Positions 6,477 to 31,166 of a DNA stretch of 64,000 nucleotides are shown here, in pieces (within the stretch, counting starts at the first letter, position 1; the number at the start of each line of letters is the position of its first letter). Under the pieces are notes generated by a model that was not told the origin of the DNA, made no database searches, and was given only the letters and a program-made list of their open reading frames with translations. A program made the translations under genes and the position numbers. This stretch comes from Saprospira grandis DSM 2844 (lineage in GTDB: Bacteria > Bacteroidota > Bacteroidia > Chitinophagales > Saprospiraceae): the NCBI GenBank assembly GCA_945888475.1, contig CAMDAB010000003.1, positions 1 through 64,000 of the forward strand, in the 5' to 3' direction.

Positions 6477-7709
6477 TTATTTTTTCATTGCTTTGAGATA
6501 ATTTGATAAGAAGCAAGAAGTGACTAGCAAATCTTTATCAACCCTGTAAGCCTGTTCAAAAGTCTTCATTTGAACAAAAGTTTCATATACATTTTTTAAA
6601 CTTGAACTAGTCTTAGTCAATTTATTAAAATCTATTTGAGTGAATATGTACTTTTCGATTAACATGTTATAGGCTGTCCCATCAAATAAATCATTCGTTA
6701 TAACTTGATTTACCCCATAAGCATCTGATGAAGGACAAAGCAGAAGTCTATTCTCGAAAGGTATTACATAAGAGCCGTCACTAATGTTAATGGTTTTATT
6801 TTTATTCTGTATTCGGAATAATTTAGTGGACGGATCTTTTATAGCCTTTACATAAAACTGCTCTTTGTCATAATATTTATTGTCAATAAATGGGAATTGA
6901 AAAATAATTTCTTCAATGTTACCATTGCTATTATATTTATAACTAACTTTAAGAGAGTCATAATCCCCATGAAAAACTATTACTCCAGCTCTCGGAGTTT
7001 TATGTAACAAATAACTTTCGTTAATTTTTACATTTTTTAATAACTCATCGTAACTTTTACCCTTAACACTTTCAAGGGTTTTTTCGCTCCAGTCCCATAT
7101 TATTTCCCATAGTTTTTGATGGTCTTTTATGAATCTTTCACCTAGCTTTAAACTCCAACTATCATTATTCAGGCTGCAATAATATTGACCGCTAACCTTT
7201 TCCTGTGTTTGAGACTTTGAAGTATAACTTATGCTTGAAACTCCAATATCCCTTGAGCCGCCAATATTTTGCATGAAGGTTTCTTGTTTATTGGGAACAA
7301 AAAACATTTCACGGTTGATTTTTAGTTTGGTTTTCTTAATTTCCCCATTCGGTTTTTGAAATTCAACTCTTGTAGCAAACATTGAATAAATATGGCAATC
7401 TGGAATAATTTTAGCAGACAGAGCTGAGTTTTTATCATAAAGTTCAATGTTCACGATTTCATTTCCAGCAGCATCTTTATTTCCAGTATTAACTAATTTT
7501 GAAGTGTATTCAGTCGAATTAGAGTTGTACACGTGAATGTGTCTTGATGGTAAATTTGTAAGTTTTTTTGGAGCAAGCACACTATACAAATATGTCCCGT
7601 TCTCATCATAAATCTGATCGGCTGTTTTTTTTGCTTTTTCCACATTTGCCTGCCCAAATAGGGAAAATACATTTAACATCATAGAGATGACAATCAAAGC
7701 GTTTTTCAT
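6477..7709 (-). CDS. Secreted protein of unknown function
   Basis: The best start is the ATG at 7709, which gives a signal peptide (MKNALIVISMMLNVFSLFGQA) and a mature protein of about 390 residues; a longer reading from 7754 would put 15 residues in front of the signal peptide. The mature part has many Lys, Asn and Tyr, no cysteine-rich or T9SS sorting domain, and no motif I recognise. It is probably periplasmic. The codon composition is more AT-rich than that of flanking genes. It runs in the same direction as ftcD with a 89-base gap and no clear terminator between. Confidence 0.7.
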   Translation of the reverse strand: MKNALIVISMMLNVFSLFGQANVEKAKKTADQIYDENGTYLYSVLAPKKLTNLPSRHIHVYNSNSTEYTSKLVNTGNKDAAGNEIVNIELYDKNSALSAKIIPDCHIYSMFATRVEFQKPNGEIKKTKLKINREMFFVPNKQETFMQNIGGSRDIGVSSISYTSKSQTQEKVSGQYYCSLNNDSWSLKLGERFIKDHQKLWEIIWDWSEKTLESVKGKSYDELLKNVKINESYLLHKTPRAGVIVFHGDYDSLKVSYKYNSNGNIEEIIFQFPFIDNKYYDKEQFYVKAIKDPSTKLFRIQNKNKTINISDGSYVIPFENRLLLCPSSDAYGVNQVITNDLFDGTAYNMLIEKYIFTQIDFNKLTKTSSSLKNVYETFVQMKTFEQAYRVDKDLLVTSCFLSNYLKAMKK

Positions 7710-7798
7710 GTAAGGTTTTTTTAAAAAAGTTAAATAAAATATATTTAGAAACAAAAGTTTATATTAGTATATACTTATATTTATTTTCTTGATAGGTT

Positions 7799-9475
7799 TT
7801 ATAATTTCGAGTGCACAATATCCAAAATAGCTTTCTCCAACTCATTGGCTTTTTGGACCAATAAATCGGACATTTGCAGGCTTTCTTTTACAAAGTTTTC
7901 ATCTTTTAGTCCGCCAAGATTTACTTTTACATTGAGATAAGCACCCAGCACAGCAGCTCTTGCGCAAAGTGCGCCTACACCTGCATCTGTCACAGAATTC
8001 GGATTGCCGATTTTGGCCATTGCCTCAATGATTTCGAAAGTTTGCAATGAAAGTTGCATTACTTTCAAAGGCACTTCCACAGCATATTTGGTGGCATTTT
8101 CTATGGCAAGCGAGCGGGCAGTTTTTTCATCATCCGTTGCTTTGGGCAAACGCATGGCATCGATAATGGCATTGAAAGCATTGGTATCTTCATCCACCAT
8201 TTTCAGTAGCGCAGTTTTGAGTTCCTGACCTTTTTCGGCCCAATTACCAAACTCAGCCCAACGCTCGTCCCAGCCTTTTTTGTGCGAGGATAAATTGGCT
8301 ACCATTGTGCCCAAAGAGACACCCAATGCGCCAACATAAGCAGCAATAGAACCTCCGCCCGGTGCCATACTTTCCGAAGCAGTTTCGTCTGCAAAGGCGG
8401 TCAATGTCATATTGACCAAAGGCGTTTTGCTGTAGTCCGCTAACATATATTCAATGATGCGTTTTTTAGGATCGAATGGTGCTAACTCGTCCAGACCCAT
8501 CGATTTGATGGCAATTTTAATCAGTTCCGATTCTGCCACACCAACTGAACGCTCCTGTTTTCTGAGGAAGAATTTGCCGGCATCAATCATTACCTGCAAA
8601 GGAACAAGTCCAACAAGTTCGGAACCTGTAACCCGCATTCCACGCTTATCTGCCGATTTGCAGCAAGCTTCGAATACTTCGTGCAAGGGCGCCAGCTGCA
8701 TATTGGTGATATTCATCGAAACCTGTGCCACGCCATATTCAGCAATGTACCAGCCAATGCCTTTTACGCCTTTGAAAAGACCGGGAACACGTAGAGGTTC
8801 ACCATTTGCATCCAATACATTTTTGCCGTTTTCTGTTTTGATACGGCCTGCTTCGCGCACATCGAAGGCGACTGAGTTTGCTCTTCGCTCGGAGGTGGTA
8901 TTCAGATTTACATTGTAAGCAATCAGAAAATCACGGGCACCGATGGCTGTTACACCCGATTTGGCATTCAGACTTCTCGGTCCGTAATCTGGAATAAAAT
9001 CATCGCCCGAAAGTTTCGAAGCCATTTTCTCATATTCTCCTGCGCGAATATTTGCCAGGTTTTTCCAGCGAGGATCAGTCGCTGAGTATTCGTACAAAAA
9101 TACCGAGATGCCCAGTTCTTCACCTACACGCTTTGCCAATTGTTTTGAATAAAGCACCGTTTCTTCCATGCTGATTCCGGAAATTGGAATAAAAGGACAG
9201 ACATCGGTGGCGCCCATGCGCGGATGTTCGCCCTTGTGCTTGCTCATATCGATGAGTTCGCTAGCTTTTTTAATGCCCAGAAAAGCTGCTTCGACCACTG
9301 CTTCGGGTGCGCCTACAAAAGTTACAACTGTTCTGTTAGTAGCCTTGCCTGGATCGACATTCAATAATTTGATACCCTCTACAGATTCGATGGCATCGGT
9401 AATCTGTCTGATGATATTCATGTCGTTCCCCTCGCTGAAATTGGGAACACATTCTATGAGTCTATTAGCGTTCAT
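7799..9475 (-). CDS. ftcD: Bifunctional glutamate formimidoyltransferase / formimidoyl-THF cyclodeaminase
   Basis: A 558-residue two-domain enzyme. Residues 1 to about 325 are the formiminotransferase (IECVPNFSEGND at the start, EHPRMGATDVCPF at 83-95, and a GVKGIGWYIAEYGVAQVSMN block). Residues from about 345 are the cyclodeaminase (SMAPGGGSIAAYVGALGVSLG). It moves the formimino group from formiminoglutamate to tetrahydrofolate and then releases ammonia, the last steps of histidine degradation. The fused form is the one found in vertebrates and many Bacteroidota. No hutH, hutU or hutI is in the window. A TACCTTTG element 51 bases upstream is the likely promoter. Confidence 0.95.
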   Translation of the reverse strand: MNANRLIECVPNFSEGNDMNIIRQITDAIESVEGIKLLNVDPGKATNRTVVTFVGAPEAVVEAAFLGIKKASELIDMSKHKGEHPRMGATDVCPFIPISGISMEETVLYSKQLAKRVGEELGISVFLYEYSATDPRWKNLANIRAGEYEKMASKLSGDDFIPDYGPRSLNAKSGVTAIGARDFLIAYNVNLNTTSERRANSVAFDVREAGRIKTENGKNVLDANGEPLRVPGLFKGVKGIGWYIAEYGVAQVSMNITNMQLAPLHEVFEACCKSADKRGMRVTGSELVGLVPLQVMIDAGKFFLRKQERSVGVAESELIKIAIKSMGLDELAPFDPKKRIIEYMLADYSKTPLVNMTLTAFADETASESMAPGGGSIAAYVGALGVSLGTMVANLSSHKKGWDERWAEFGNWAEKGQELKTALLKMVDEDTNAFNAIIDAMRLPKATDDEKTARSLAIENATKYAVEVPLKVMQLSLQTFEIIEAMAKIGNPNSVTDAGVGALCARAAVLGAYLNVKVNLGGLKDENFVKESLQMSDLLVQKANELEKAILDIVHSKL

Positions 9476-19538: not shown

Positions 19539-22500
19539 TTACCTCATGAGTGTGATAGTTCCGCGTTTCAGCACCAAACCTGCTCCAGTGGATGATTCCC
19601 AACTGATGGTGTACATATAAACCTCTCTTGGTTGTTCAGCGCCATTAAAGGTACCATTCCATGCAGCTTCATCGGCATTGTCATAAACAACTTTACCCCA
19701 ACGGTTATAGATTGTAAATTCACGAATGAATTTTTTGTCCATTTTAACAACCTGGAAGATATCATTTAAGCCGTCATTGTTTGGAGAGAAAGCAGTTGGA
19801 ATAGATGGGGTGTTAGCTCTAACCTCAACATTTAAAGTATCGGTTGCAATACAACCATCACTGGAAGTTGCAGTGATAATAAACTGATAGATGCCATCAT
19901 CGTCTGGTTCGACACTTGTGTTGATGCTATCAGCAGCGCTAAAGTTAGCATTGCTTGGTCCTACTGAAGTCCAGGCATAGCTTACGCCGCTTTCAATGTT
20001 GCCACCTGTAAGTAATGTAGGATCGCCCCAAATAATTAAAGTATCTGTAGCCAGTGAGTTTAATACACCTGCATTCAGTGTAGGCTGGAATGAAGTGTTT
20101 ACAGTAGCTGCGTCAGTAACAGTACAGCCATCACTGTCCGTAACCGTTACATTATAAGTTCCTGCTGATGCTGCAGCAATGTCTTCGGTAGTTACACCAT
20201 TCGACCAGGCATAAGTGAGTGGTAAGTTGCCGCCTGAAACTGTCAAATCAAGAGCACCTGAATTTGGTTGTCCGCAGGCTTCATCAACTGCTGTCAAAGT
20301 AACACTGATATCACCACTTCCTGCAACAGCAATATTTTGTGATGTCTGACATCCATTGGCGTCGCTCACTGTGATTGTATAGTTAGCTGCTGCCAAACCT
20401 GTAAGGTCTTCAGCACTTGCGCCATTCGACCAGCTGTAAGTATATGCACCTGTGCCACCGTTAACTGATAGTGTGATTGTCCCATCTGGCTGTCCGCAAT
20501 TTGCAATTGTAGTAGATACATTGCTAATTGCTAAAGCAGTCGGTTGTGTAATATTGATTGGACCAAGATTTCTGATACAGCCATTTGCATCGGTAACTGT
20601 AAGTGAGAAAGAACCCGCTGCGATGTTATTCAAATCTTCTGTCGTAGTACCATTGCTCCAGATATAACTGTAAGGGCTAGTTCCACCAGAAACAGTTACT
20701 GGTATAGTACCATTTGTACCGCCATTACAGCTAACATTGGTAGACGTATTAGAAACGGTAACTGCTGTAGGCTGAGTTACAACAAGATTTGTTTGGGTTG
20801 CAGTACAACCTAAGTTGTCGGTTACAGTAACTGCGTAGGTGCCTGCCGCCAAACCATTTATATCCTGACTTGTGGCGCCATTGCTCCAGGAGTAGCTGTA
20901 ATTTGGTGTTCCACCCGATACAGATAAATTAATAGATCCATTGCTACCTCCATTACAAGCGATATTTGCAACGGTTACAGATGCAGAAGGTGTACCAATA
21001 GCTGCAATTGCAATGGGTCCGTTTGTTGTGCTACAGCCATTTGCATCACTTATCGTAACGGTGTAAGCACCTGCGCTTAATCCTGAGACATCTTGTGTAT
21101 TTGCACCATTCGACCATGCGTAATTAAGCGTGCCTGTACCTCCCGATGCATTGATATCAATAGTTCCACCTGCTGAACAGGTAGCATCTGTTGTAGTAAG
21201 CGTATTTGATGTAATTGCTGAAGGTTGTGTAACTGTAGCAGAAGCTGTTGCTGTACAACCTGCACTACTGGTTGCAGTCACGTTATAAGTTCCAACTGCA
21301 AGACCTGAAATGTCTTCAGTTGTTGCTCCATTACTCCAGTTGAAGGTATATCCTGTTCCTGCAATTGTAAGGTTTACTGAACCATTGTTACTTCCATTAC
21401 AAGAAGCATTTGTATTTAATGCGGACGCAGAGAGGGCAGCTGGTTGTGTTATTACTACGGTATCAATTGCTGTACAGAAAACGCTTGGGGCTACTGCATC
21501 GGAAACTGTTACAAAATAGGTTCCTGCAGCCAATCCACAGATACTGTCAGAACTGACACCGATATTACTCCAGTTATAAGTGTAATTTCCTGTACCGTAT
21601 TCTACATCAATACCTGCACAGCCATTATTTCCTCCAAAGCATGATGTATTCACAATATTTGCAGACAAGCCAAGTGCTTTGCTAGGTTGTGTAATAGTTA
21701 TTGAACTTGTGGAAGAGCAGCCAGAAACATCAGAAACGGTTACTCTATAGGTACCAGCAGCCAAAGAAGCTAAGTCCTGAGATGTTGCACCGTTGCTCCA
21801 AGCATAGGTATATGGTGCAGTTCCGTTTGCAGGAGTCAGGTCAATTGAACCGGTTGACTGTCCGAAACATAAAACATTCTGTCTAATATTAGTAGTACTA
21901 AGTAAACAGTTTAGTGTGGAACAACTTATAGTTACAGGCGCACCTGCCGAGCAGGCAGTTCCCAAACCATTATTTCCACGAACAAGAACAGTCACAGTTG
22001 TACCAGGAGCTAAACCCGAAAGTGTAGTGGTTAAAGATGTGCCAACATTATTCCAGGTGATACCTCCATCGATACTATACTGATAAAAACCACTTCCACC
22101 AATTGCAAGCGCAGACCAGTTGATGGTAACACTATTTAGTGTAGAACTACCGCATGATGCTACAGGAGCGGCTAATGCACCAGTGATATTCACTTGAATA
22201 CTGTCGGTAAATACGCAGGCTCCATTTTGAATATTTACAACATAAGTTGTTGGTGCATTTGGTGTAGCAACCGGGTTAGAAATTGTGCTATTATTAAGTG
22301 TTGTAGAAGGTGTCCAATTGTAGGTAATTGGTTGGAAAACGGTAGTTGTAATTACATTTGGCGTAATTCTGAGTGCCTGGTTTTGTACAAATGAGTTTGT
22401 AATTGAATTGATACCAGTACCCAAGATTGCAGTACCGTTAGCATTTTCTAATCCAATTGTTAGAGGCTCAACTGAACCCACAAAGAAATCAATATCGTCT

Positions 22501-24230
22501 ATTGCATAGGTAATATGCATTTCTATCTGATTTGAACCTTCTCTTAGAATTGCCTGCACCGTACATAAATCGCCACCACTGAAAGTAGGTACATTTGTAT
22601 AACTGATAACTAATGATCTGTTAGGAGCTACGCCAATAGTTCTGTATCTTATACTTCCGCCGGATGATGGATCCAAATCTGTCCAACAAAGTGCAATCAG
22701 GTTATTTGGAGCAGCTGGGTTTGGTATAGTTTGGTTTAATACTGTTCCAGGCGCACCAGGAGAGAAGGTTATAAAACCATTCGACCCCAAGTAAAACTGT
22801 GTGTAAGTATTACAAAAGAACTGAAAAGAAAAACCAATAGGCAGCGCAGCAGATACTTGATCATCGCCCAATGTTACTGTCGTTCCGGTTGTAGCAAGCG
22901 GTGCATTTGGAATTAGCACAGATGAATAAGTAGGAGCACAGGTAGTGGTAGTTTGAGCGCCTATGGTATCTGTAAGGATTGCACTTAGATTTAGTGGCTG
23001 ACCTGCGCAAACAGGATTTGGAGTTGCCGACATGGTAATGTCAATGTCATAACCAAAGATTTCAATAGTGTCTCTTTGAACACAACCACCATAGGTATAA
23101 ACCAATTGGAAAGAAAGTGAATCGCCCGAAGCAATTGCCGGAGGGGTGAAAGTTGGATTGGCTGTATTTGCACCTGTGATTGTTGCAGCTGGACCGCTGA
23201 TCTGTGTCCATGCATAAGCACTTGAACCACTTGCTGTAGTTGGGAAAGTGGCTGCATTAGCCTGGTATGAACCACCGGAACAAATAGTGTCGCCAGGTGG
23301 GAGCGGAGGAATGCCCGGAACGACTACCGTAATCGGATATGAATCGAAGCAGTCACTTGTTCCAGAGTTTTCAACTCCTAAATCGAAAGTGAATACACCA
23401 TTCTGATTTTGTCCCGGAGTAATCCTAACGATAAAATCCATACTATCTCTAAATGGCGCATTTGGATAAAATGGCCCAAAGATTTGGTATTCATTAACAT
23501 TAAAGGTATTGCCGATTGTCGTAAGCGAATTAAAAATTGCAAGTGAATCAGCAATATTATCTGCGCCAATTCCTACATTGAAATAAAGTGTATCACCTGG
23601 ACAAACTTTAAATTCAGCATTATTGTTCGTGGCAGCTGTAAGTGTTCCTGCTCCATTAGCCAATGGAACAATGCTGAAATTAGCATTTAATTGGCAGGGA
23701 CATCCAATTTGTCCAGTACCAATATTTGAAGTACTGAAAATATTGGTAGCAACATTCGCAAAATTGGTAATCATAAGGATATAAACCTGACCAACAACAG
23801 CATTGGGGATATCGACCGTTTCAAAGGCCTGTGGATCATAACTACAATCAATCACATTGCCGCCTGCACCTCCGTTTCCTAAATTATTACAGCCGGCAGT
23901 TGCTGCAAAAAGGTTAGGAAATGGACCATACACGATGAAGTCGATATCCACAATATTTGAATTTTGGATATCGAACTGAATGGTACCCGATTGGGTAATG
24001 GTTAGCGTATAATAGGTCGGATTCGGTGTAGTAAGCAAGCAGCTGTAATTTGATCCAGCCGGAGCCTGAGGACCAGTGCCGGGACCAGTACCAGTGTAAT
24101 TTATTGGATAGGGTGTAATATTGTTACACAGAGGTGTAGCTGTCTGACAACTTAAGCCCTGGGCATTTGTCTGGTAATATCCTAGCAGCAATAAAAAAAA
24201 GGCTATCAGAAAATTGTTGAAATTTTTCAT
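19539..24230 (-). CDS. Giant SprB-repeat adhesin with T9SS type B sorting domain
   Basis: A 1563-residue cell-surface protein. Order: signal peptide (1-23, ending TNAQ); an N-terminal domain to about 180; PKD/Ig-like segments (310-425); a domain with the GFSFQFFCNTYTQFYLGSNGFI pattern at about 460-640 seen in secreted Bacteroidota proteins; an Ig-like and a fibronectin-III-like domain (to about 785); eight SprB repeats of about 75 residues (773-1378), each with a core like SWSNGATSQDL..L.AGTY.VTVTD..GC; a linker; and a CHU_C/gliding-associated C-terminal domain (1477-1563, starting IPTAFSPNNDG). SprB repeats occur in the mobile gliding adhesin of Flavobacterium johnsoniae. T9SS would export it. 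The gene lies 29 bases after a small secreted-protein gene and ends at a strong terminator; no PorP/SprF-like gene is adjacent. Confidence 0.92.
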   Translation of the reverse strand: MKNFNNFLIAFFLLLLGYYQTNAQGLSCQTATPLCNNITPYPINYTGTGPGTGPQAPAGSNYSCLLTTPNPTYYTLTITQSGTIQFDIQNSNIVDIDFIVYGPFPNLFAATAGCNNLGNGGAGGNVIDCSYDPQAFETVDIPNAVVGQVYILMITNFANVATNIFSTSNIGTGQIGCPCQLNANFSIVPLANGAGTLTAATNNNAEFKVCPGDTLYFNVGIGADNIADSLAIFNSLTTIGNTFNVNEYQIFGPFYPNAPFRDSMDFIVRITPGQNQNGVFTFDLGVENSGTSDCFDSYPITVVVPGIPPLPPGDTICSGGSYQANAATFPTTASGSSAYAWTQISGPAATITGANTANPTFTPPAIASGDSLSFQLVYTYGGCVQRDTIEIFGYDIDITMSATPNPVCAGQPLNLSAILTDTIGAQTTTTCAPTYSSVLIPNAPLATTGTTVTLGDDQVSAALPIGFSFQFFCNTYTQFYLGSNGFITFSPGAPGTVLNQTIPNPAAPNNLIALCWTDLDPSSGGSIRYRTIGVAPNRSLVISYTNVPTFSGGDLCTVQAILREGSNQIEMHITYAIDDIDFFVGSVEPLTIGLENANGTAILGTGINSITNSFVQNQALRITPNVITTTVFQPITYNWTPSTTLNNSTISNPVATPNAPTTYVVNIQNGACVFTDSIQVNITGALAAPVASCGSSTLNSVTINWSALAIGGSGFYQYSIDGGITWNNVGTSLTTTLSGLAPGTTVTVLVRGNNGLGTACSAGAPVTISCSTLNCLLSTTNIRQNVLCFGQSTGSIDLTPANGTAPYTYAWSNGATSQDLASLAAGTYRVTVSDVSGCSSTSSITITQPSKALGLSANIVNTSCFGGNNGCAGIDVEYGTGNYTYNWSNIGVSSDSICGLAAGTYFVTVSDAVAPSVFCTAIDTVVITQPAALSASALNTNASCNGSNNGSVNLTIAGTGYTFNWSNGATTEDISGLAVGTYNVTATSSAGCTATASATVTQPSAITSNTLTTTDATCSAGGTIDINASGGTGTLNYAWSNGANTQDVSGLSAGAYTVTISDANGCSTTNGPIAIAAIGTPSASVTVANIACNGGSNGSINLSVSGGTPNYSYSWSNGATSQDINGLAAGTYAVTVTDNLGCTATQTNLVVTQPTAVTVSNTSTNVSCNGGTNGTIPVTVSGGTSPYSYIWSNGTTTEDLNNIAAGSFSLTVTDANGCIRNLGPINITQPTALAISNVSTTIANCGQPDGTITLSVNGGTGAYTYSWSNGASAEDLTGLAAANYTITVSDANGCQTSQNIAVAGSGDISVTLTAVDEACGQPNSGALDLTVSGGNLPLTYAWSNGVTTEDIAAASAGTYNVTVTDSDGCTVTDAATVNTSFQPTLNAGVLNSLATDTLIIWGDPTLLTGGNIESGVSYAWTSVGPSNANFSAADSINTSVEPDDDGIYQFIITATSSDGCIATDTLNVEVRANTPSIPTAFSPNNDGLNDIFQVVKMDKKFIREFTIYNRWGKVVYDNADEAAWNGTFNGAEQPREVYMYTISWESSTGAGLVLKRGTITLMR
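20095..21910 (-). repeat. Array of eight SprB repeats (coding)
   Basis: Eight tandem modules of about 225 bp in the 1563-aa adhesin gene. The copies are diverged in DNA and protein, in contrast to the array at 25330-28945. The last five modules correspond one to one with the last five of the 2006-aa protein. Confidence 0.85.
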
Positions 24231-24259
24231 GGTTTCGGCGATTAAAGAATTTACCGGAA

Positions 24260-24661
24260 TTATTTAGAAGATTTTGGTTTCTTTTCAGGTGTTTTATATT
24301 CCTGAATTTGTTTTTCAACATGAGCTAATGATGCCCTATATTTATCCAAATATAGTTTGTTTTGCTCATTTTGCTCCATTTTTCCGTAACGGGCAATTTG
24401 GAATTTGAGGTCTTCTCTTTGAGATTGCAACTGTTCAAGTGGATTTGCTTGTATGGCCCTCGTTTGACTATTTAGCTTGTTAGTCTCAAGTGTTTGAGGC
24501 TTTTCAGGCAATTGATATTGGTACTTCGGAGAGACTTTTTCTTCCCAAGAGAGATTTTTGGGATTATCAGTATTGTTTACTGAATTATGCTGACTGTAGG
24601 CGTTAAAAGAATAACAAACAGTCAGACAGAGTGCTGTTGTTTTCAAAATAAAATTATACAT
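24260..24661 (-). CDS. Small secreted charged protein preceding adhesin 1
   Basis: A 133-residue protein with a signal peptide (to about residue 23, NAYSQ). The mature part is rich in Gln, Lys, Glu and Asn, with a predicted helical, possibly coiled-coil stretch at about 75-120 (LEQLQSQREDLKFQIARYG) and a Lys-rich tail. I do not recognise a family. It ends 29 bases before the giant adhesin gene, has its own promoter-like element, and mirrors the 98-aa gene placed before the second adhesin. A chaperone or surface-partner role is only inferred from position. Confidence 0.65.
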   Translation of the reverse strand: MYNFILKTTALCLTVCYSFNAYSQHNSVNNTDNPKNLSWEEKVSPKYQYQLPEKPQTLETNKLNSQTRAIQANPLEQLQSQREDLKFQIARYGKMEQNEQNKLYLDKYRASLAHVEKQIQEYKTPEKKPKSSK

Positions 24662-24689
24662 AGACCAAATTAGTTTTAATAATGTTTTG

Positions 24690-24721
24690 CTAAAGTAGAA
24701 TCTTTTAAAATATTAACCAAA
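24690..24721 (-). promoter_or_regulatory. Candidate promoter of cassette 1
   Basis: On the minus strand TTTG, 20 bases and TACTTTAG (one base from TAnnTTTG) lie 29 bases before the 133-aa gene. It follows the terminator of the 2006-aa adhesin gene, so the two cassettes appear to be separate transcription units. Confidence 0.5.
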
Positions 24722-24733
24722 TAATAAAGCAAA

Positions 24734-24769
24734 AAAAAATAGCCACTCTATAATGAATGGCTATTTTTT
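24734..24769. terminator. Intrinsic terminator of the 2006-aa adhesin gene
   Basis: AAAAAATAGCCA and TGGCTATTTTTT form a perfect 12-bp stem with a 12-base loop, starting 6 bases after the adhesin stop codon on the minus strand. Confidence 0.88.
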
Positions 24770-24775
24770 AGAATA

Positions 24776-27700
24776 TTAACGTAATAATGTAATGTTTCCT
24801 CTCTTTATCACATCTCCGTTTCCAGTTGATGATTCCCAACTGATGATGTACATGTAAACATCCCTTGGCTGCTCTGTTCCTTTAAATTTTCCATCCCATT
24901 CAGCTTCAGTGGCATTGTCATATACAACTTCACCCCAACGATTATATATCTTAAATTCCCTAATAAATTTTTTATCCATGTTGACGACTCTAAAATTATC
25001 ATTAGTTCCATCATTGTTAGGGGAGAATGCTGTTGGAATAGCAGGGTTATTTGCACGAACTTCAACATTTAAAGTATCAGTTGTAATACAGCCTTCGGCA
25101 GAAATTGCCGTGATGATAAACTGATAAATTCCATCATCATCAGGTTCGACTGCAGTATTGATACTGTCTGGATTGTTAAAATTAGCATTGCTTGGTCCAA
25201 TAGATGTCCAGGTATAAGTCACTCCTTGCGCCGTTTGGTCGCTTCCACCTGTGAGGGATGTTAAATCTCCCCATGTTATAAGTGTGTCTCTTGCATTTGA
25301 AGGTAAAACAGCTGCATTTAAAGTTGGTTGGAAAGCAGCAGCAATAGTGGTATTGGCAGATATGCTGCAACCATTGGCATCGCTGACTGTGACAGTGTAT
25401 GAACCAGCACTGATAGTAGTTAAATCCTCTGTTGTTGCGCCATTCGACCAGTTGTAGGTCAGGGGCAATGTGCCGCCACTTGGTGTAACATCGACTGAAC
25501 CGGAATTTGGCTGACCACAACCTTCGTCAATACTGCTGAGCGTAATACTAATGTCACTGCCACCATTTACGGAGAAACTTTGAGTTAAGATACAACCATT
25601 TGCATCTGTAACTGATAAACTGTAGTTGCCAATAGCCAAATTATTTAGATCTTCATTAGTAGCTCCATTTGACCAGCTATATATATAAGGTGTAACCCCG
25701 CCATTTGTTGAAAGCGTGATTGTACCATCGGCAGCGCCGCAATTTGCTGTTGTTGTACTTACATTACTAAGGTTCAGTGATGTAGGTTGCGTGATATTTA
25801 CAGGACTCAAAACCCTGACACATCCGTTAGCGTCACTGACAGTTAAAGTATATGAACCCGCCGAGATATTATTTAAATCTTCAGTTGTGGCTCCATTGCT
25901 CCAGATATAACTATATCCGGCTGTTCCACCTGAAACAGTTACAGGAATAGTTCCATTGTTGCCGTTATTGCAACTTACATTCGTCGAAGTATTGGTGACA
26001 GTTAATGCCGTTGGTTCTGAAATATTGATACTTGTTTGCACAGCAGTACAGCCAATATTGTCGGTTACAGTAACAGAATAGGAGCCGCCGCTTAGACCAT
26101 TTAAATCCTGCGTAGTAGCGCCATTGCTCCATAGGTATGTATAACTTGGTGATCCGCCACTGATGTTTAAATCGATAAAACCATTTGCAGCGCCATTACA
26201 ACTCACATTATTAACTGAAGTTATACTTGCAGAAGGGGTACCTATTGCGTTGACAATATTTGGACCATTGCTAACAGAACATCCATTGGCATCTGTAATG
26301 GTAACTGAGTATGAACCTGCACTAACAGCATTTAAGTCCTGTGATGTTGAACCATTAGACCATACAAAACTAAGTGATCCGGTTCCACCGCTTGCGCTGA
26401 TATCCACTGTTCCGCCAGCAGAACAGGTTGCATCGGTTATAGTTATGGTGTTGGTATTCAACGCACTAGGTTCTGTTATAGTTGCTGATGATGTCGTTGT
26501 ACAGGCATTAGCATCTGTTACAATGACTGTATAAACGCCGGCAGCTAATCCTGTGCGGTCTTCGCTTGTGATACCTCCGCCCCAATTGTAAGATAGAACG
26601 CCTGTTCCTCCGCCAGCAGTAAGGTTAATAGAACCATTGGCTGAACTGTTACAGCTTGCATTTGAAACAGTATTTGAGGCCGTGAGCAGACTTGGTTCTG
26701 TTATAGTATAGGTATTGATGTTTGTACAGGCATTGGCATCTGTAACAGTGACTGTGTAAACTCCGGCAGCAAGACCGCTACGGTCTTCGCTTGTTATACC
26801 GCCACCCCAGTTATAAGAAAGAACACCTGTGCCACCATTTGCTGTAATGTCAATAGATCCATTTGATTGTCCGTTGCAGACAGCATTTTGTGAGCTGTTG
26901 GTAACAGAAATAGCTGTTGGTTGGGTGATGGTTGCAGTGTTGGTTGAGGTGCAATTGTTTGCATCTGTTACAGTAACAGTATAAATACCAGGAGCCAGAT
27001 TGTTTCTGTCCTCCGAGATTATCCCGCCGCCCCAGTTGTAAGCCAAAACGCCAGTGCCTCCCGAAGCAGTGATGTTGATAGAACCATTATTTTGATTGTT
27101 ACAGGTTACATTGGCAGCGGTATTGCTTACTGTAATTGCCGTTGGTTCAGTAATTGTAGCCGATGATGTCGTTGTACAGGCATTAGCATCTGTTACAGTG
27201 ACTGTATAAACCCCAGCGGCAAGTCCAGTGCGATCTTCGCTCGTTATACCTCCGCCCCAATTGTAAGACAGAACGCCTGTTCCCCCGACTGCAGTAAGGT
27301 TAATAGAACCATTGGCCGAACTATTACAGTTTGCATTTGAAACAGTATTTGAGGCCGTGAGCAGACTTGGTTCTGTTATAGTATATGTATTGATGTTTGT
27401 ACAGGCATTGGCATCTGTAACAGTGACTGTGTAAACTCCGGCAGCAAGACCGCTACGGTCTTCGCTTGTTATACCGCCACCCCAGTTATAAGAAAGAACA
27501 CCTGTGCCACCATTAGCTGTAATGTCAATAGATCCATTTGATTGTCCGTTGCAGACAGCATTTTGTGAGCTGTTGGTAACAGAAATAGCTGTTGGTTGGG
27601 TGATGGTTGCAGTGTTGGTTGAGGTGCAATTGTTTGCATCTGTTACAGTAACCGTGTAAACACCAGGAGCAAGACCAGTTCTATCTTCACTAATAATACC

Positions 27701-30700
27701 AGCTCCCCAGTTATAACCTAAAATACCTGTGCCACCCGAAGCAGTGATGTTGATAGAACCATTATTTTGATTGTTACAGGTTACATTGGCAGCGGTATTG
27801 CTTACTGTAATTGCCGTTGGTTCAGTAATTGTAGCTGATGAAGTTGTGGTGCAATTATTAGCATCTGTAACTGTAACTGTATAAACGCCGGCAGCTAATC
27901 CTGTGCGGTCTTCGCTTGTAATACCACTTCCCCAGTTATAGGAAAGCACACCTGTTCCTCCGCCTGCTGTAAGGTTAATTGAGCCGTTAGCAGAACTGTT
28001 ACAGCTTGCATTTGTAACAATATTAGAAGCATTTAGTAGGGTTGGTTGGCTAATTGTTGCAGTATTTGTTGTTGTACATGAATTTGCATCGGTAACTGTC
28101 ACGGTATAAGTGCCTGCTGCCAATCCTGTTCGATCTTCTGATGTAATAGCGCCACCCCAGTTATAAGAAAGCGTTCCTGAGCCACCGGCTGCTGTAACAT
28201 CTATTGAACCATTTGATTGTCCGTTGCAAAGAACATTTAATGAACTGTTTGTAACTGAGATTCCCGATGGTTGTGTGATTGTTGCTGAGCTTGTGGAAGT
28301 ACAGCTGTTAGCATCTGTTACGGTTACAGTGTAAGTGCCCGGAGCCAGATTGTTTCTGTCCTCCGAGATTATACCTCCGCCCCAGTTATAAGCCAAAACG
28401 CCTGTACCACCCGAGGCAGTTATGTTAATTGAGCCGTTATTTTGGCCGTTACAGCTTGCGTTTAGCGAACTATTGCTGACAGTTATTGCTGTAGGTTGTG
28501 TAATTGTTATTGAATTTGTTGCTGTACAAGAGTTTGCATCAGAAACCGTTACGGTGTATGTTCCTGGAGAAAGTCCAGTTCTGTTTTGAGATGTAATACC
28601 AGTTCCCCAGTTAAAATTATATCCCGAGGTTCCACCGTTTATATTCAAAGTTACAGAGCCATTATTGATGCCATTACAGCTAACATTATTAACAGTAGGC
28701 GTTACTGTAAGCGCTGAGGGTGCAGTAACGTTAGCAGTAGCAGTTGTGGTACAACCGCCATTATCACTAACTGTAACGGTGTAAGTTCCAGCAGCCAAAC
28801 CCGTATTGTTTTGAGTAGTGCGTCCGTTGCTCCAGATAAATGTGAAAGGAGCAGCTCCGCCGCTCAATGCGACGTTTACAGAACCATTGTTGCCTCCATT
28901 ACAGCTGCTATTATTTGCCGTTGGCGTTGCAGTAAGCGCAGTAGGCGTAATTGTAACCGTAGAAGTTGAAGTACAGCCAGCTGCATTTACAGCAGTTAAG
29001 GTATAAGTTGTAGTTGTCGCTGGACAGACTGTCGGAGTTAAAGTTCCTGAATTTGTCATAGCTGTTGTTGGACTCCAACTGAAAGGCGCCAATGTATTGT
29101 TAAATGTAATAGACCAATTTGTTAAAGTACCTACATCTCCACCTAAATCATCTCGTATAACCAATTGCCAATTTCCATTTACATTGCACCCATTTAGTAA
29201 ATTAAATGATTGTTCAGGAATAAAAGTCCCATTAAATGGTGGTGCGCCAGCAATGACGGATGTAGCTGCTGACATTGAGAAACAAGTATTTGTGTAGTTG
29301 TCTCCTGCTCCTCCGTTGTCGTCAGATAAATTAATCTGTGTGCCATTCGGACAGCGTAGAAATATATCCAAATCCGAATCCCAGGTATGTGTAATGTTGA
29401 GACATACATTTAGGATTGAACCGGCAGCAATCGTTGTGGGATTTATTCCGCTTACAATAATGCTTGATGATACCAAAGTATTATTATCTGGTATATTCAA
29501 AGCTGTATTGTTGTTAAAAGTAACTGGACCGGACAGTCCGCCACTAGCATTAGTTGTTCCATTTAAGGTAACGCATCCGCCAGGACAAACAGATGTACTG
29601 GTTCCGGCATTAACAGTTGGAGGATCTGTTACCGTTACACTTCTTGTTGTTAAGTTCTGACATCCACCAGGGATTGAAGTAACTAAAAGACTTGCACTGT
29701 AAACCCCTGCTGCTGGATAAGTAAAAGTTGGATTTTGTAATGTTGAGGTAACCCCATTTCCGAAATTCCAACTATATGTATTACTGCCATTGGTTGTGTT
29801 GGTAAATTGTGTAGGATTACCTGTGCAAACAGTATTGGTGGTAAAACTTGGATTGGGCGAAGCAAATTGAACAGTGCCTGTAAAACTTAAGGTAAAACCT
29901 GCAGCTGAAGTTGCCGTAAATCGGTCAACTAAAATAGAATAAGTCTGGCCTGCTGTAACATTCAGACAAGGTGTAAATTGAGCTCCTACAGCACCGCTTA
30001 GTCCAGTCAGACCATTCACTCCGGTTAGTCCCGACCAATTACAGGCCAATTCTGTGCCCAAACATCCATTGGTAGTGTTATATACAGCAAAGTCATAATC
30101 TATATTTGCGGTAGGAAGAATATCGAAACAAAGTGTACCGTTATTGGCTGCAGTGAATGAATACCAGTTGGAAGCTCTTTCACCTGGTGCCCCAAAACAA
30201 GATGGGGCCTCCTGAATTATTCCAGGGCCACCAGTACCATTTGCCACAGAGATTGGATTTGTGTTACATAGAAATCTTGCAGTAGGACAGTCCTGTATGG
30301 GAAGTGGAGGGCTAGCAGGTGTAATTTGCTGAGCACAAATTCCAAATTCTCCTGTGCTATTTGCATTACCGTCAACCATTATAAAATAGGTATTACCAAC
30401 AGTGAGTCCCTGAAGTTGAATGTTGGTATGAAAAAGGCCCAATGATGTGTTGATGTCCTCATTACATCCTATCAAAGTCAATGCGCCACAGTTCCCACTG
30501 TATATGGCAACCTGAGTATTTGTTAGCACAAAGCCAAAATTTGTTGAAACTTCAACAGCAGTAGATGGTGCGACAAAAGAAAACCAAACAGTATTACTTA
30601 GGCTATTTGGTGCCCAGCAGGGAGGTGTGGCGGGATCTCCTACACTTGTGGCCCCTACATTAGTAAAAGCACCTGATGTGCAACTCCCGTTGGTTACAGG

Positions 30701-30796
30701 TATAGATATCGCCCCTGGACAAGCGTCATTTGCAGGTTGGGCAAAGATGGCAGTAGCGCTTAATGCTAAGATTATATATAGGTAAAATGTTCTCAT
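24776..30796 (-). CDS. Giant SprB-repeat adhesin (2006 aa) with T9SS type B sorting domain
   Basis: Order: signal peptide (1-19, ending FAQ); two N-terminal domains of about 130 residues resembling secreted beta-sandwich domains (QPANDACPGAI..., QDCPTARFLCN...); a PKD domain (about 320-395, SYNW/YSWNFGNG type); a proprotein-convertase P-like jelly roll (about 420-575, HTWDSDLDIFLRCPNG...GNWQLVIRDD); an Ig-like segment; sixteen SprB repeats (617-1822); a linker (TLITWGD... YTWTSIGPSNANF); and a CHU_C domain (1920-2006). Repeats 6-8 and 9-11 are a recent 675-bp tandem duplication. The C-terminal part from repeat 12 onward is collinear with the 1563-aa paralogue. It should be secreted by T9SS and displayed on the surface, probably for adhesion or gliding. 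It follows the 98-aa gene by 12 bases. Confidence 0.93.
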   Translation of the reverse strand: MRTFYLYIILALSATAIFAQPANDACPGAISIPVTNGSCTSGAFTNVGATSVGDPATPPCWAPNSLSNTVWFSFVAPSTAVEVSTNFGFVLTNTQVAIYSGNCGALTLIGCNEDINTSLGLFHTNIQLQGLTVGNTYFIMVDGNANSTGEFGICAQQITPASPPLPIQDCPTARFLCNTNPISVANGTGGPGIIQEAPSCFGAPGERASNWYSFTAANNGTLCFDILPTANIDYDFAVYNTTNGCLGTELACNWSGLTGVNGLTGLSGAVGAQFTPCLNVTAGQTYSILVDRFTATSAAGFTLSFTGTVQFASPNPSFTTNTVCTGNPTQFTNTTNGSNTYSWNFGNGVTSTLQNPTFTYPAAGVYSASLLVTSIPGGCQNLTTRSVTVTDPPTVNAGTSTSVCPGGCVTLNGTTNASGGLSGPVTFNNNTALNIPDNNTLVSSSIIVSGINPTTIAAGSILNVCLNITHTWDSDLDIFLRCPNGTQINLSDDNGGAGDNYTNTCFSMSAATSVIAGAPPFNGTFIPEQSFNLLNGCNVNGNWQLVIRDDLGGDVGTLTNWSITFNNTLAPFSWSPTTAMTNSGTLTPTVCPATTTTYTLTAVNAAGCTSTSTVTITPTALTATPTANNSSCNGGNNGSVNVALSGGAAPFTFIWSNGRTTQNNTGLAAGTYTVTVSDNGGCTTTATANVTAPSALTVTPTVNNVSCNGINNGSVTLNINGGTSGYNFNWGTGITSQNRTGLSPGTYTVTVSDANSCTATNSITITQPTAITVSNSSLNASCNGQNNGSINITASGGTGVLAYNWGGGIISEDRNNLAPGTYTVTVTDANSCTSTSSATITQPSGISVTNSSLNVLCNGQSNGSIDVTAAGGSGTLSYNWGGAITSEDRTGLAAGTYTVTVTDANSCTTTNTATISQPTLLNASNIVTNASCNSSANGSINLTAGGGTGVLSYNWGSGITSEDRTGLAAGVYTVTVTDANNCTTTSSATITEPTAITVSNTAANVTCNNQNNGSINITASGGTGILGYNWGAGIISEDRTGLAPGVYTVTVTDANNCTSTNTATITQPTAISVTNSSQNAVCNGQSNGSIDITANGGTGVLSYNWGGGITSEDRSGLAAGVYTVTVTDANACTNINTYTITEPSLLTASNTVSNANCNSSANGSINLTAVGGTGVLSYNWGGGITSEDRTGLAAGVYTVTVTDANACTTTSSATITEPTAITVSNTAANVTCNNQNNGSINITASGGTGVLAYNWGGGIISEDRNNLAPGIYTVTVTDANNCTSTNTATITQPTAISVTNSSQNAVCNGQSNGSIDITANGGTGVLSYNWGGGITSEDRSGLAAGVYTVTVTDANACTNINTYTITEPSLLTASNTVSNASCNSSANGSINLTAGGGTGVLSYNWGGGITSEDRTGLAAGVYTVIVTDANACTTTSSATITEPSALNTNTITITDATCSAGGTVDISASGGTGSLSFVWSNGSTSQDLNAVSAGSYSVTITDANGCSVSNGPNIVNAIGTPSASITSVNNVSCNGAANGFIDLNISGGSPSYTYLWSNGATTQDLNGLSGGSYSVTVTDNIGCTAVQTSINISEPTALTVTNTSTNVSCNNGNNGTIPVTVSGGTAGYSYIWSNGATTEDLNNISAGSYTLTVSDANGCVRVLSPVNITQPTSLNLSNVSTTTANCGAADGTITLSTNGGVTPYIYSWSNGATNEDLNNLAIGNYSLSVTDANGCILTQSFSVNGGSDISITLSSIDEGCGQPNSGSVDVTPSGGTLPLTYNWSNGATTEDLTTISAGSYTVTVSDANGCSISANTTIAAAFQPTLNAAVLPSNARDTLITWGDLTSLTGGSDQTAQGVTYTWTSIGPSNANFNNPDSINTAVEPDDDGIYQFIITAISAEGCITTDTLNVEVRANNPAIPTAFSPNNDGTNDNFRVVNMDKKFIREFKIYNRWGEVVYDNATEAEWDGKFKGTEQPRDVYMYIISWESSTGNGDVIKRGNITLLR
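25330..28945 (-). repeat. Array of sixteen SprB repeats (coding)
   Basis: Sixteen modules of about 225 bp. Modules 3-11 share a NWGGGI.SEDR core and are closely similar in DNA, while modules 12-16 use the SNGATTEDL core and are more diverged. This points to recent expansion of the middle of the array. Confidence 0.88.
26486..27835 (-). repeat. 675-bp tandem duplication (three SprB repeats per unit)
   Basis: Sequence landmarks recur at an exact 675-base offset: ATGTCGTTGTACAGG at 26491 and 27166, TTTGTACAGGCATTGGC at 26721 and 27396, and ATTGCCGTTGGTTCAG at 27135 and 27810. Each unit encodes three 75-residue repeats, and the two units are almost identical at the DNA level, with patchy differences. 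Confidence 0.9.
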
Positions 30797-30808
30797 TGTT
30801 AAGGCAGC

Positions 30809-31105
30809 TTATTGTTGGTGAGGATTTTCTTCTTTTTTCTTTTCTTGTTCCGATAGGTAAAGCATATATGCTTCTCTGCTGACAGGCTTATCATTAATGA
30901 TATAAAAAACAGCCGGGGTGGATTTTGAAATTTTTATTTTTTCAATATCCTCCTTTGTTAAGCGATCTTTATCAGACTTTAGCTGCTGTTGGTCTTTCAT
31001 GATTTCGTTTTTCGAAACCGGAATTGGCTCTTTTTTTTCTTGGATTTGAGCACTGACCATTGAATTAATACCAAAAAATAAAAATAAGATTATTAAAAGC
31101 TTCAT
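30809..31105 (-). CDS. Small secreted charged protein preceding adhesin 2
   Basis: A 98-residue protein with a signal peptide ending VSAQ. The mature part is Lys/Glu/Gln-rich with a short hydrophobic middle (TPAVFYIINDKPVS) and a charged helical tail. No family was recognised. It ends 12 bases before the 2006-aa adhesin gene and is likely cotranscribed with it. It shares architecture, but little sequence, with the 133-aa protein before the other adhesin. Confidence 0.65.
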   Translation of the reverse strand: MKLLIILFLFFGINSMVSAQIQEKKEPIPVSKNEIMKDQQQLKSDKDRLTKEDIEKIKISKSTPAVFYIINDKPVSREAYMLYLSEQEKKKEENPHQQ

Positions 31106-31158: not shown

Positions 31159-31166
31159 CAAAGTTA
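31159..31166 (-). promoter_or_regulatory. Candidate -7 element of cassette 2 (TAACTTTG)
   Basis: The minus strand reads TAACTTTG, 54 bases before the 98-aa gene. No -33 TTTG is seen upstream. Confidence 0.4.

Follow-up and report, generated by a model that had tools for sequence, protein, structure and literature searches.

In the genome of Saprospira grandis DSM 2844, two cassettes that each pair a gene for a small, seemingly exported protein with a gene for a giant adhesin lie side by side within the first 64,000 nucleotides of contig CAMDAB010000003.1 (this whole stretch is referred to here as the window). The adhesins are type B substrates of the type IX secretion system (T9SS), and the small protein of the second cassette, W133, is a member of SSP-A, an unannotated family of small secreted proteins (SSPs) defined in this analysis. 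The linkage of SSP-A genes to adhesin genes is conserved, purifying selection acts on the relatives of W133, and the specificity is for a head domain of the adhesin, termed class A, rather than for its sorting domain. Judged from sequence, SSP-A would be a dedicated accessory of the class A N-terminal domain, in the favoured form a periplasmic accessory or chaperone, and we put the probability of this reading at about 0.5. The same reading takes each cassette as a short operon-like unit, in which the gene for a small Sec-exported protein is followed directly by the gene for a giant type B T9SS adhesin.

All four open reading frames (ORFs) were recovered on the minus strand where the original prediction had placed them, and the spacing that it described, a small gene preceding each giant gene by 29 and 12 bases, was confirmed: 29 bases separate W133 from the adhesin of 1563 amino acids (aa), and 12 bases separate W98 from the 2006-aa adhesin. 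The components of the two cassettes are as follows.

24260..24661, minus strand: W133, gene for the 133-aa small protein of cassette 2 (SSP-A family)
24293..24442, minus strand: predicted two-helix hairpin of W133 (mature residues 51-100; AlphaFold2)
19539..24230, minus strand: 1563-aa adhesin (W1563) of cassette 2, with class A head, SprB repeats and CHU_C
23676..24158, minus strand: class A N-terminal domain of the 1563-aa adhesin, a predicted beta-sandwich (PPC/GOLD/CBM-like)
19590..19802, minus strand: CHU_C type B sorting domain of the 1563-aa adhesin
30809..31105, minus strand: W98, the 98-aa small protein gene of cassette 1 (ORF)
24776..30796, minus strand: 2006-aa adhesin (W2006) of cassette 1, with PPC-like head, PKD, P-domain, SprB repeats and CHU_C
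30302..30739, minus strand: class B-like N-terminal domain of the 2006-aa adhesin (alignment A5; 1e-53 in a profile containing that row)
24824..25039, minus strand: CHU_C type B sorting domain of the 2006-aa adhesin

Both giant proteins are, as predicted, SprB-repeat adhesins of T9SS type B, with a C-terminal CHU_C / TIGR04131 domain above cut-off in each (53.4 and 55.1 bits against 27 for the former model, 55.3 and 50.8 against 35 for the latter). Neither small ORF matches any Pfam or NCBIfam family above its cut-off, and the small proteins showed no T9SS sorting domain, so that they would be periplasmic unless carried along. The genome of the window is a draft of 4.28 Mb in 318 contigs.

Class A is a conserved N-terminal domain of about 160 residues (alignment A2) that opens the 1563-aa adhesin and was detected, at E up to 1e-15, in 45 genomes out of the 396 sampled from the order; a scan of named contigs for its relatives kept the best 80 of 256 matches (79 loci). 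In the Saprospiraceae and their relatives, class A adhesins are usually preceded by a small exported protein, the C-terminal half of which resembles a helical hairpin. An SSP-A profile was built from 30 such sequences (alignment A3), chosen for their position before class A adhesins. Run over 46 genomes that bear the class A domain, it produced 24 hits (E up to 4e-6) that span 7 genera of 3 families; comparison of their coordinates with the class A domain positions places all 24 upstream of a class A adhesin, and there was no hit anywhere else in those genomes. As the profile itself contains 13 of the 24 as exact rows, and others are strain copies, the count speaks for exclusivity and not for 24 independent finds. 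When 198 genomes of the order were scanned, the four hits below E 1e-9 were all upstream of class A adhesins (three of the four being profile rows), and 22 weak matches (E 1.5e-4 to 0.009) had a class A domain in none of their 22 loci. Among 1834 gene models of the fetched loci, all 41 that score at least 29 bits precede a class A adhesin, a figure that is not independent evidence since most loci were fetched by the class A domain. Conservation of the pair across genera, which the original prediction had proposed as a test, is thus seen for the 133/1563-aa pair but not for W98, for which a direct search of 60 genomes, insensitive as such searches are, returned no significant match.

W133 belongs to SSP-A by virtue of its Aureispira and own-genome relatives and its position: it matches the small protein of Aureispira locus L153 at 1.6e-16 (phmmer) and a paralogue on contig C54 of its own genome at 5.5e-6 (in a 13-sequence set). 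Left out of the profile, it scores 13.6 bits, which none of 2000 shuffles attained, and most SSP-A groups are likewise recognized above shuffles when left out in turn. The profile is not fully sensitive, having missed the small gene on contig C117 of the same genome, which is of this kind. The class A adhesins of S. grandis were at first taken, wrongly, to have no SSP; a 98-aa SSP-A protein is encoded 235-247 bp upstream and had been masked by a spurious ORF of 41-62 aa.

The position of these genes was also compared with that of control genes. A gene passed the upstream test when a small ORF of 60-180 aa with a signal peptide was encoded on the same strand within 350 bp, the loosest of three signal-peptide rules serving for the main counts. 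Among the records titled Aureispira, Saprospira, Saprospiraceae or Chitinophagales, the test was passed by 29 of 39 class A genes, compared with 3 of 30 for other secreted genes and 3 of 54 for non-secreted genes, the controls being of at least 300 aa; under the two stricter rules 22 and 24 of the 39 did so. Two of the ten misses are the second adhesin of a tandem, and in L155 the SSP is at 594 bp, past the limit. L196 and L205, titled Chitinophaga/Chitinophagaceae, were counted with the other Bacteroidota, and one class A gene with less than 450 bp upstream was excluded from the 86. Several records are close strains, so the counts are not independent. In the first group of records, a small exported gene precedes class A adhesins more often than chance would have it.

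In the sequences compared, SSP presence goes with the adhesin head and not with the T9SS signal. The two adhesins of the window share 79% identity over their last 100 residues, 71% over the last 235 and 70% over the last 420, and their heads differ; the cassettes are matched, as first described, in their shared layout but not in their small proteins, between which no relation was found. In Aureispira genome G324, three giant adhesins are 97-100% identical over their last 235 residues, and an SSP stands before the class A-headed one only; one of the other two has a 51-aa ORF 46 bp upstream that is unlike any SSP. No convincing SSP was found before 17 other adhesin-like genes with a complete start (hand-picked from G324 and S. 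grandis G001, and including ghpA), one of which has a doubtful 71-aa ORF at 232 bp, and these genes rule out the notion that all giant SprB adhesins have an SSP. Across 15 pairs, SSP distance tracks the N-terminal domain beyond what the C-terminal domain (CTD) accounts for (partial r 0.57, permutation p 0.0002); the CTD contributes little once the N-terminal domain is accounted for (0.15, p 0.08).

The ghpA gene offers a comparison within Aureispira. PDB entry 9flp is, by its molecule names, the Aureispira grappling hook protein GhpA, and the first 1000 residues encoded by the gene at L260 (G324, contig C1) match residues 1-1000 of 9flp end to end (2236 bits). The repeat region of GhpA is related to the Aureispira class A adhesin L163, with a whole-sequence E of 1.7e-120 over many repeats and 4.8e-14 for the best single stretch. 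Unlike the class A adhesins, GhpA has no class A match at E up to 1, and there is no SSP 5′ of its gene. Neither W1563 nor W2006 matched 9flp at E up to 1. A gene for a 355-aa signal-peptide protein lies 313 bp 5′ of ghpA on the same strand.

Alternatively, the small protein could serve as a dedicated T9SS export partner, replacing a missing SprF and acting on the sorting domain. The observation behind this idea, that no PorP/SprF partner is encoded nearby, held up: none was found on this contig, and the genome has 12, of which seven lie beside a CHU_C gene and the other five have no CHU_C neighbour in sight (draft contigs). A hidden Markov model (HMM) search detected no sprF in 17 SSP loci, 12 of which show more than 1.1 kb downstream of the adhesin; the model recovers 7 of 7 left-out SprF proteins and had replaced a regular expression that found only 2 of 8 positive controls. 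Since no sprF was found in these loci, the SSP-linked adhesins look like "orphan" type B substrates. In Flavobacterium johnsoniae, according to passages of PMC12618676, 9 of the 12 type B genes have an sprF-like gene next to them, and a single unlinked shuttle serves the three orphans. A shuttle acting in trans is therefore to be expected here too, and the small protein need not replace SprF; the five PorP/SprF genes without a CHU_C neighbour in sight also count against such a substitution. The F. johnsoniae SprB and PorP/SprF system likewise combines a type B CTD adhesin, SprB repeats and a neighbouring partner gene, but SprF is described as a beta-barrel shuttle that is encoded downstream and acts on the CTD, unlike the partner here, a small protein of predicted helical structure whose gene lies upstream and which goes with the N-terminal domain. 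SSP-A is predicted to form a hairpin, not a barrel, and the small proteins, at 98 and 133 aa, have no match to PF11751, the model for the PorP/SprF beta-barrel of about 300 aa. Finally, adhesins with practically the same last 235 residues have no SSP before them, and the window adhesins, 79% alike over the last 100, have unrelated small proteins. We therefore consider a dedicated type B export partner, one of the roles suggested at the outset, very unlikely.

A more basic doubt is whether the small ORFs are genes at all, or stand where they do by chance. Direct searches with either protein speak for the doubt: W133 found no significant match among 60 relatives (as W98 had not), and the best E values of the two small-protein queries were 0.03 and 0.02. 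Such searches fail: these small proteins diverge fast and the search is insensitive; one of the same kind missed the C54 paralogue of W133 in its own genome. Matches from the direct search were read at six loci and the matched proteins proved unrelated, one of these loci (L010) holding a different small exported gene before a CUB-type adhesin. Codon usage scores are 0.169 for W98 and 0.113 for W133, both above the highest value among 18 shadow ORFs (0.097). The W98 stretch also yields 0.135 and 0.147 in two other frames, nearly as much, which makes this evidence weak for W98. W133 has a family, a conserved position and purifying selection in its relatives to set against the doubt; for W98, solely its signal peptide (it passes all three crude rules), its codon usage and the 12-base gap do so. 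Overall, it is highly improbable that the ORFs are spurious or placed by chance.

Selection and predicted structure add to the picture of SSP-A. The ratio of nonsynonymous to synonymous substitution rates (dN/dS) in orthologue pairs, none of which includes W133, is 0.10 and 0.16 for SSP-A (with high dS, 1.4 and 2.2) and 0.19 for SSP-B, the family described below; a fourth pair is saturated at synonymous sites. In the AlphaFold2 model of mature W133, residues 1-50 are of low confidence (block means of the predicted local distance difference test, pLDDT, 47-59), followed by a two-helix hairpin of residues 51-70 and 76-100 (block means 89-96). The class A domain is predicted as a beta-sandwich (mean pLDDT 82) whose Foldseek matches to GOLD, PPC and CBM are weak, with one below E 0.001 and TM-scores by query length of 0.28-0.47. 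Its predicted jelly-roll-like fold resembles that of PPC and collagen-binding domains, but unlike them the class A head is covered by no curated Pfam family; one of 31 members matches PF04151 (PPC) at 0.009. In Aureispira-type SSP-A proteins (L156-L158, L160-L164, L167-L169, L265, L349) a CxxC-like cysteine pair occurs in the half predicted with low confidence, and the mature part of W133 is free of cysteine. A disulfide role for this pair is conceivable by analogy, because a twin-cysteine motif of F. johnsoniae SprF and PorG bonds GldK, as passages of PMC12635249 state.

On the favoured reading, the small gene would be translated first and SSP-A exported by Sec to the periplasm, where its helical hairpin would hold the N-terminal beta-sandwich of the adhesin, shielding it or keeping it competent; the adhesin would then leave via the T9SS by its own C-terminal signal and an SprF-like shuttle encoded elsewhere. 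Periplasmic location, physical binding and a chaperone role are what we infer, and action in the periplasm fits with the partner gene coming first, with SSP-A having no sorting signal and with the precedent of SkpA. According to passages of PMC10994853, F. johnsoniae cannot export SprB without this Skp homologue, and a periplasmic helical protein therefore does serve type B export. Skp and SkpA are exported helical proteins, as SSP-A is predicted to be. From the same passages SkpA is a translocon-bound trimer homologous to Skp; unlike it, SSP-A is adhesin-specific, has a predicted hairpin of some 50 residues and lacks a Skp family match (none among the hits of W133 and W98, nor for 30 SSP-A members at E up to 0.01).

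The main rival makes the small protein a structural subunit that binds the head, crosses the outer membrane with the adhesin and sits at its tip. Linkage and head-domain specificity would be the same as for a periplasmic accessory, the adhesin head would be the part farthest from the C-terminal anchor, and piggyback export of a protein without a sorting signal of its own would explain the one-to-one genes. The passages of T9SS papers at hand, however, do not mention carriage of a CTD-less partner, and a variable, low-confidence half joined to a small hairpin looks, as modelled, more like a client-binding protein. We regard a tip subunit as possible but unlikely. The small gene may instead encode a separate surface or envelope protein that is merely co-regulated with the adhesin; the gaps do vary (median 44 bp over 35 hand-listed pairs, 25 of them at most 60 bp and the longest 594 bp), and some genomes keep class A adhesins without SSP-A. 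Co-regulation requires neither the exclusivity of SSP-A nor a small-protein type that matches the head type, and it is a rather improbable account.

Several observations weigh against a dedicated accessory of the class A head. The SSP-A profile has no hit in 29 of the 46 class A-bearing genomes, some of which have another small exported gene and several none. The upstream test is passed by 14 of 46 class A genes in records from other Bacteroidota, a rate that does not clearly exceed that of the secreted controls (9 of 44). Proximity to the 5′ end of the adhesin gene could alone lead an SSP to follow the N-terminal domain, a caveat that touches the distance correlation; the evidence from the window pair, from G324 and from the 17 genes does not rest on that correlation. 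The 13.6 bits of left-out W133 are reached by 19 of 1800 background genes, namely 8 SSP-A copies and 11 unrelated coiled-coil-like genes from the weak-match loci of the 198-genome scan. Left-out L187 and L204/L219 are recognized weakly and L222 not at all (19, 41 and 737 of 1000 shuffles, respectively, score as high), and the limits of the family are uncertain. Secretion, predicted for both small proteins, stood for W98 but is less secure for W133, which fails all three of the crude rules and whose signal peptide was read by eye and is backed by its relatives. Lastly, W98 belongs to no family found.

For cassette 1 a helper role of W98 may be proposed by analogy, because the layout is the same but the head is different and the small protein unrelated. 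The closest relatives of the head of the 2006-aa adhesin are termed class B. Some of these relatives are preceded by SSP-B, a set of mutually related small proteins, unrelated to SSP-A, that are encoded 1 to 26 bp upstream on contig C98 of the same genome and at G004:C37, G043:C3 and G075:C38 (G043 and G075 belong to another family). SSP-B is present at the three best of the 30 fetched class B loci (own C98, G043 and G075) and absent from the other 27, three of which have another exported-looking ORF of 61-236 aa. W98 was rejected both as a divergent SSP-B (0.9 bits; 777 of 2000 shuffles as high) and as a divergent SSP-A (-2.2 bits; 1915 of 2000). Where a W2006-like head occurs in proteins of 560-1606 aa, a small exported-looking ORF is found 5′ in 1 of 24 cases, and that one is doubtful (72 aa, at 343 bp).

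Other features accompany the cassettes. At L153 and L166 the SSP-A gene lies 278 and 220 bp after the end of a further adhesin whose C-terminus looks like type B, and tandem cassettes like those of the window therefore occur in Aureispira too. A divergent NupC-like transporter gene (so labelled by sequence resemblance) adjoins SSP-A on own contig C54, in G004, in several Aureispira records and in G374, which suggests an old, fixed SSP-A locus. Other small exported-looking proteins are encoded directly 5′ of adhesins in other families and in the Flavobacteriales (L118:2074-2529 and 7631-8008; L184, L196; L198, L199, L202; L223, L230); one pair among them is related at 9e-07, the remaining groupings being made by eye, and head-specific partners may extend more widely than SSP-A and SSP-B. 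Within the 2006-aa adhesin, residues ~170-310 (~29870-30290) form a second domain with a weak alignment (29% over 154 columns, 9e-12) to the class A region in the 1563-aa protein. Near-identical blocks recur about 675 bp apart inside the same gene (for example at 26771 and 27446), with identical terminator-like matches 675 bp apart and repeated protein text, and are likely a site of length variation. A 44-47 aa ORF in nearly identical intergenic copies on two contigs of this genome (L056:4363-4506 and L063:8720-8854) is possibly a dispersed repeat. Two candidate signals were noted beside the cassette genes.

24734..24769, minus strand: intrinsic-terminator-like hairpin between the cassettes, 15 pairs and a T run
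31159..31166, minus strand: TAACTTTG, candidate -7 box 61 bases before the W98 start (TAnnTTTG motif)

Terminator-like sites show no excess in the region (9 observed, 9.3 expected from shuffles). Promoter boxes looked for 5′ of SSP genes gave no clear pattern, and TAACTTTG, a match to the -7 box motif TAnnTTTG, is a weak candidate, with no TTG box at the spacing tested and a chance expectation of ~0.14 per 200 bp. A plasmid search returned one match, at chance level.

Among the literature titles and abstract openings surveyed, none concerns a small protein gene upstream of type B adhesins, and the T9SS literature, in the portions seen, centres on the C-terminal sorting domain and its shuttle. 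A bolder and rather doubtful extension is that the head modules of Saprospiraceae adhesins are interchangeable, each being encoded together with a small exported partner of its own that rides the head to the surface without a T9SS signal, as a two-component tip or a form of T9SS hitch-hiking. On that view, duplication of a cassette followed by a joint swap of partner and head would explain why the window adhesins are 71% identical over the last 235 residues and their partners unrelated. If a dedicated partner of the N-terminal head is indeed at work, gliding and predatory Bacteroidota would handle their cargo at a further, new level; an unnamed family of small proteins would gain a testable role, and there would be a route by which adhesin tips could be swapped as modules with the export signal unchanged.

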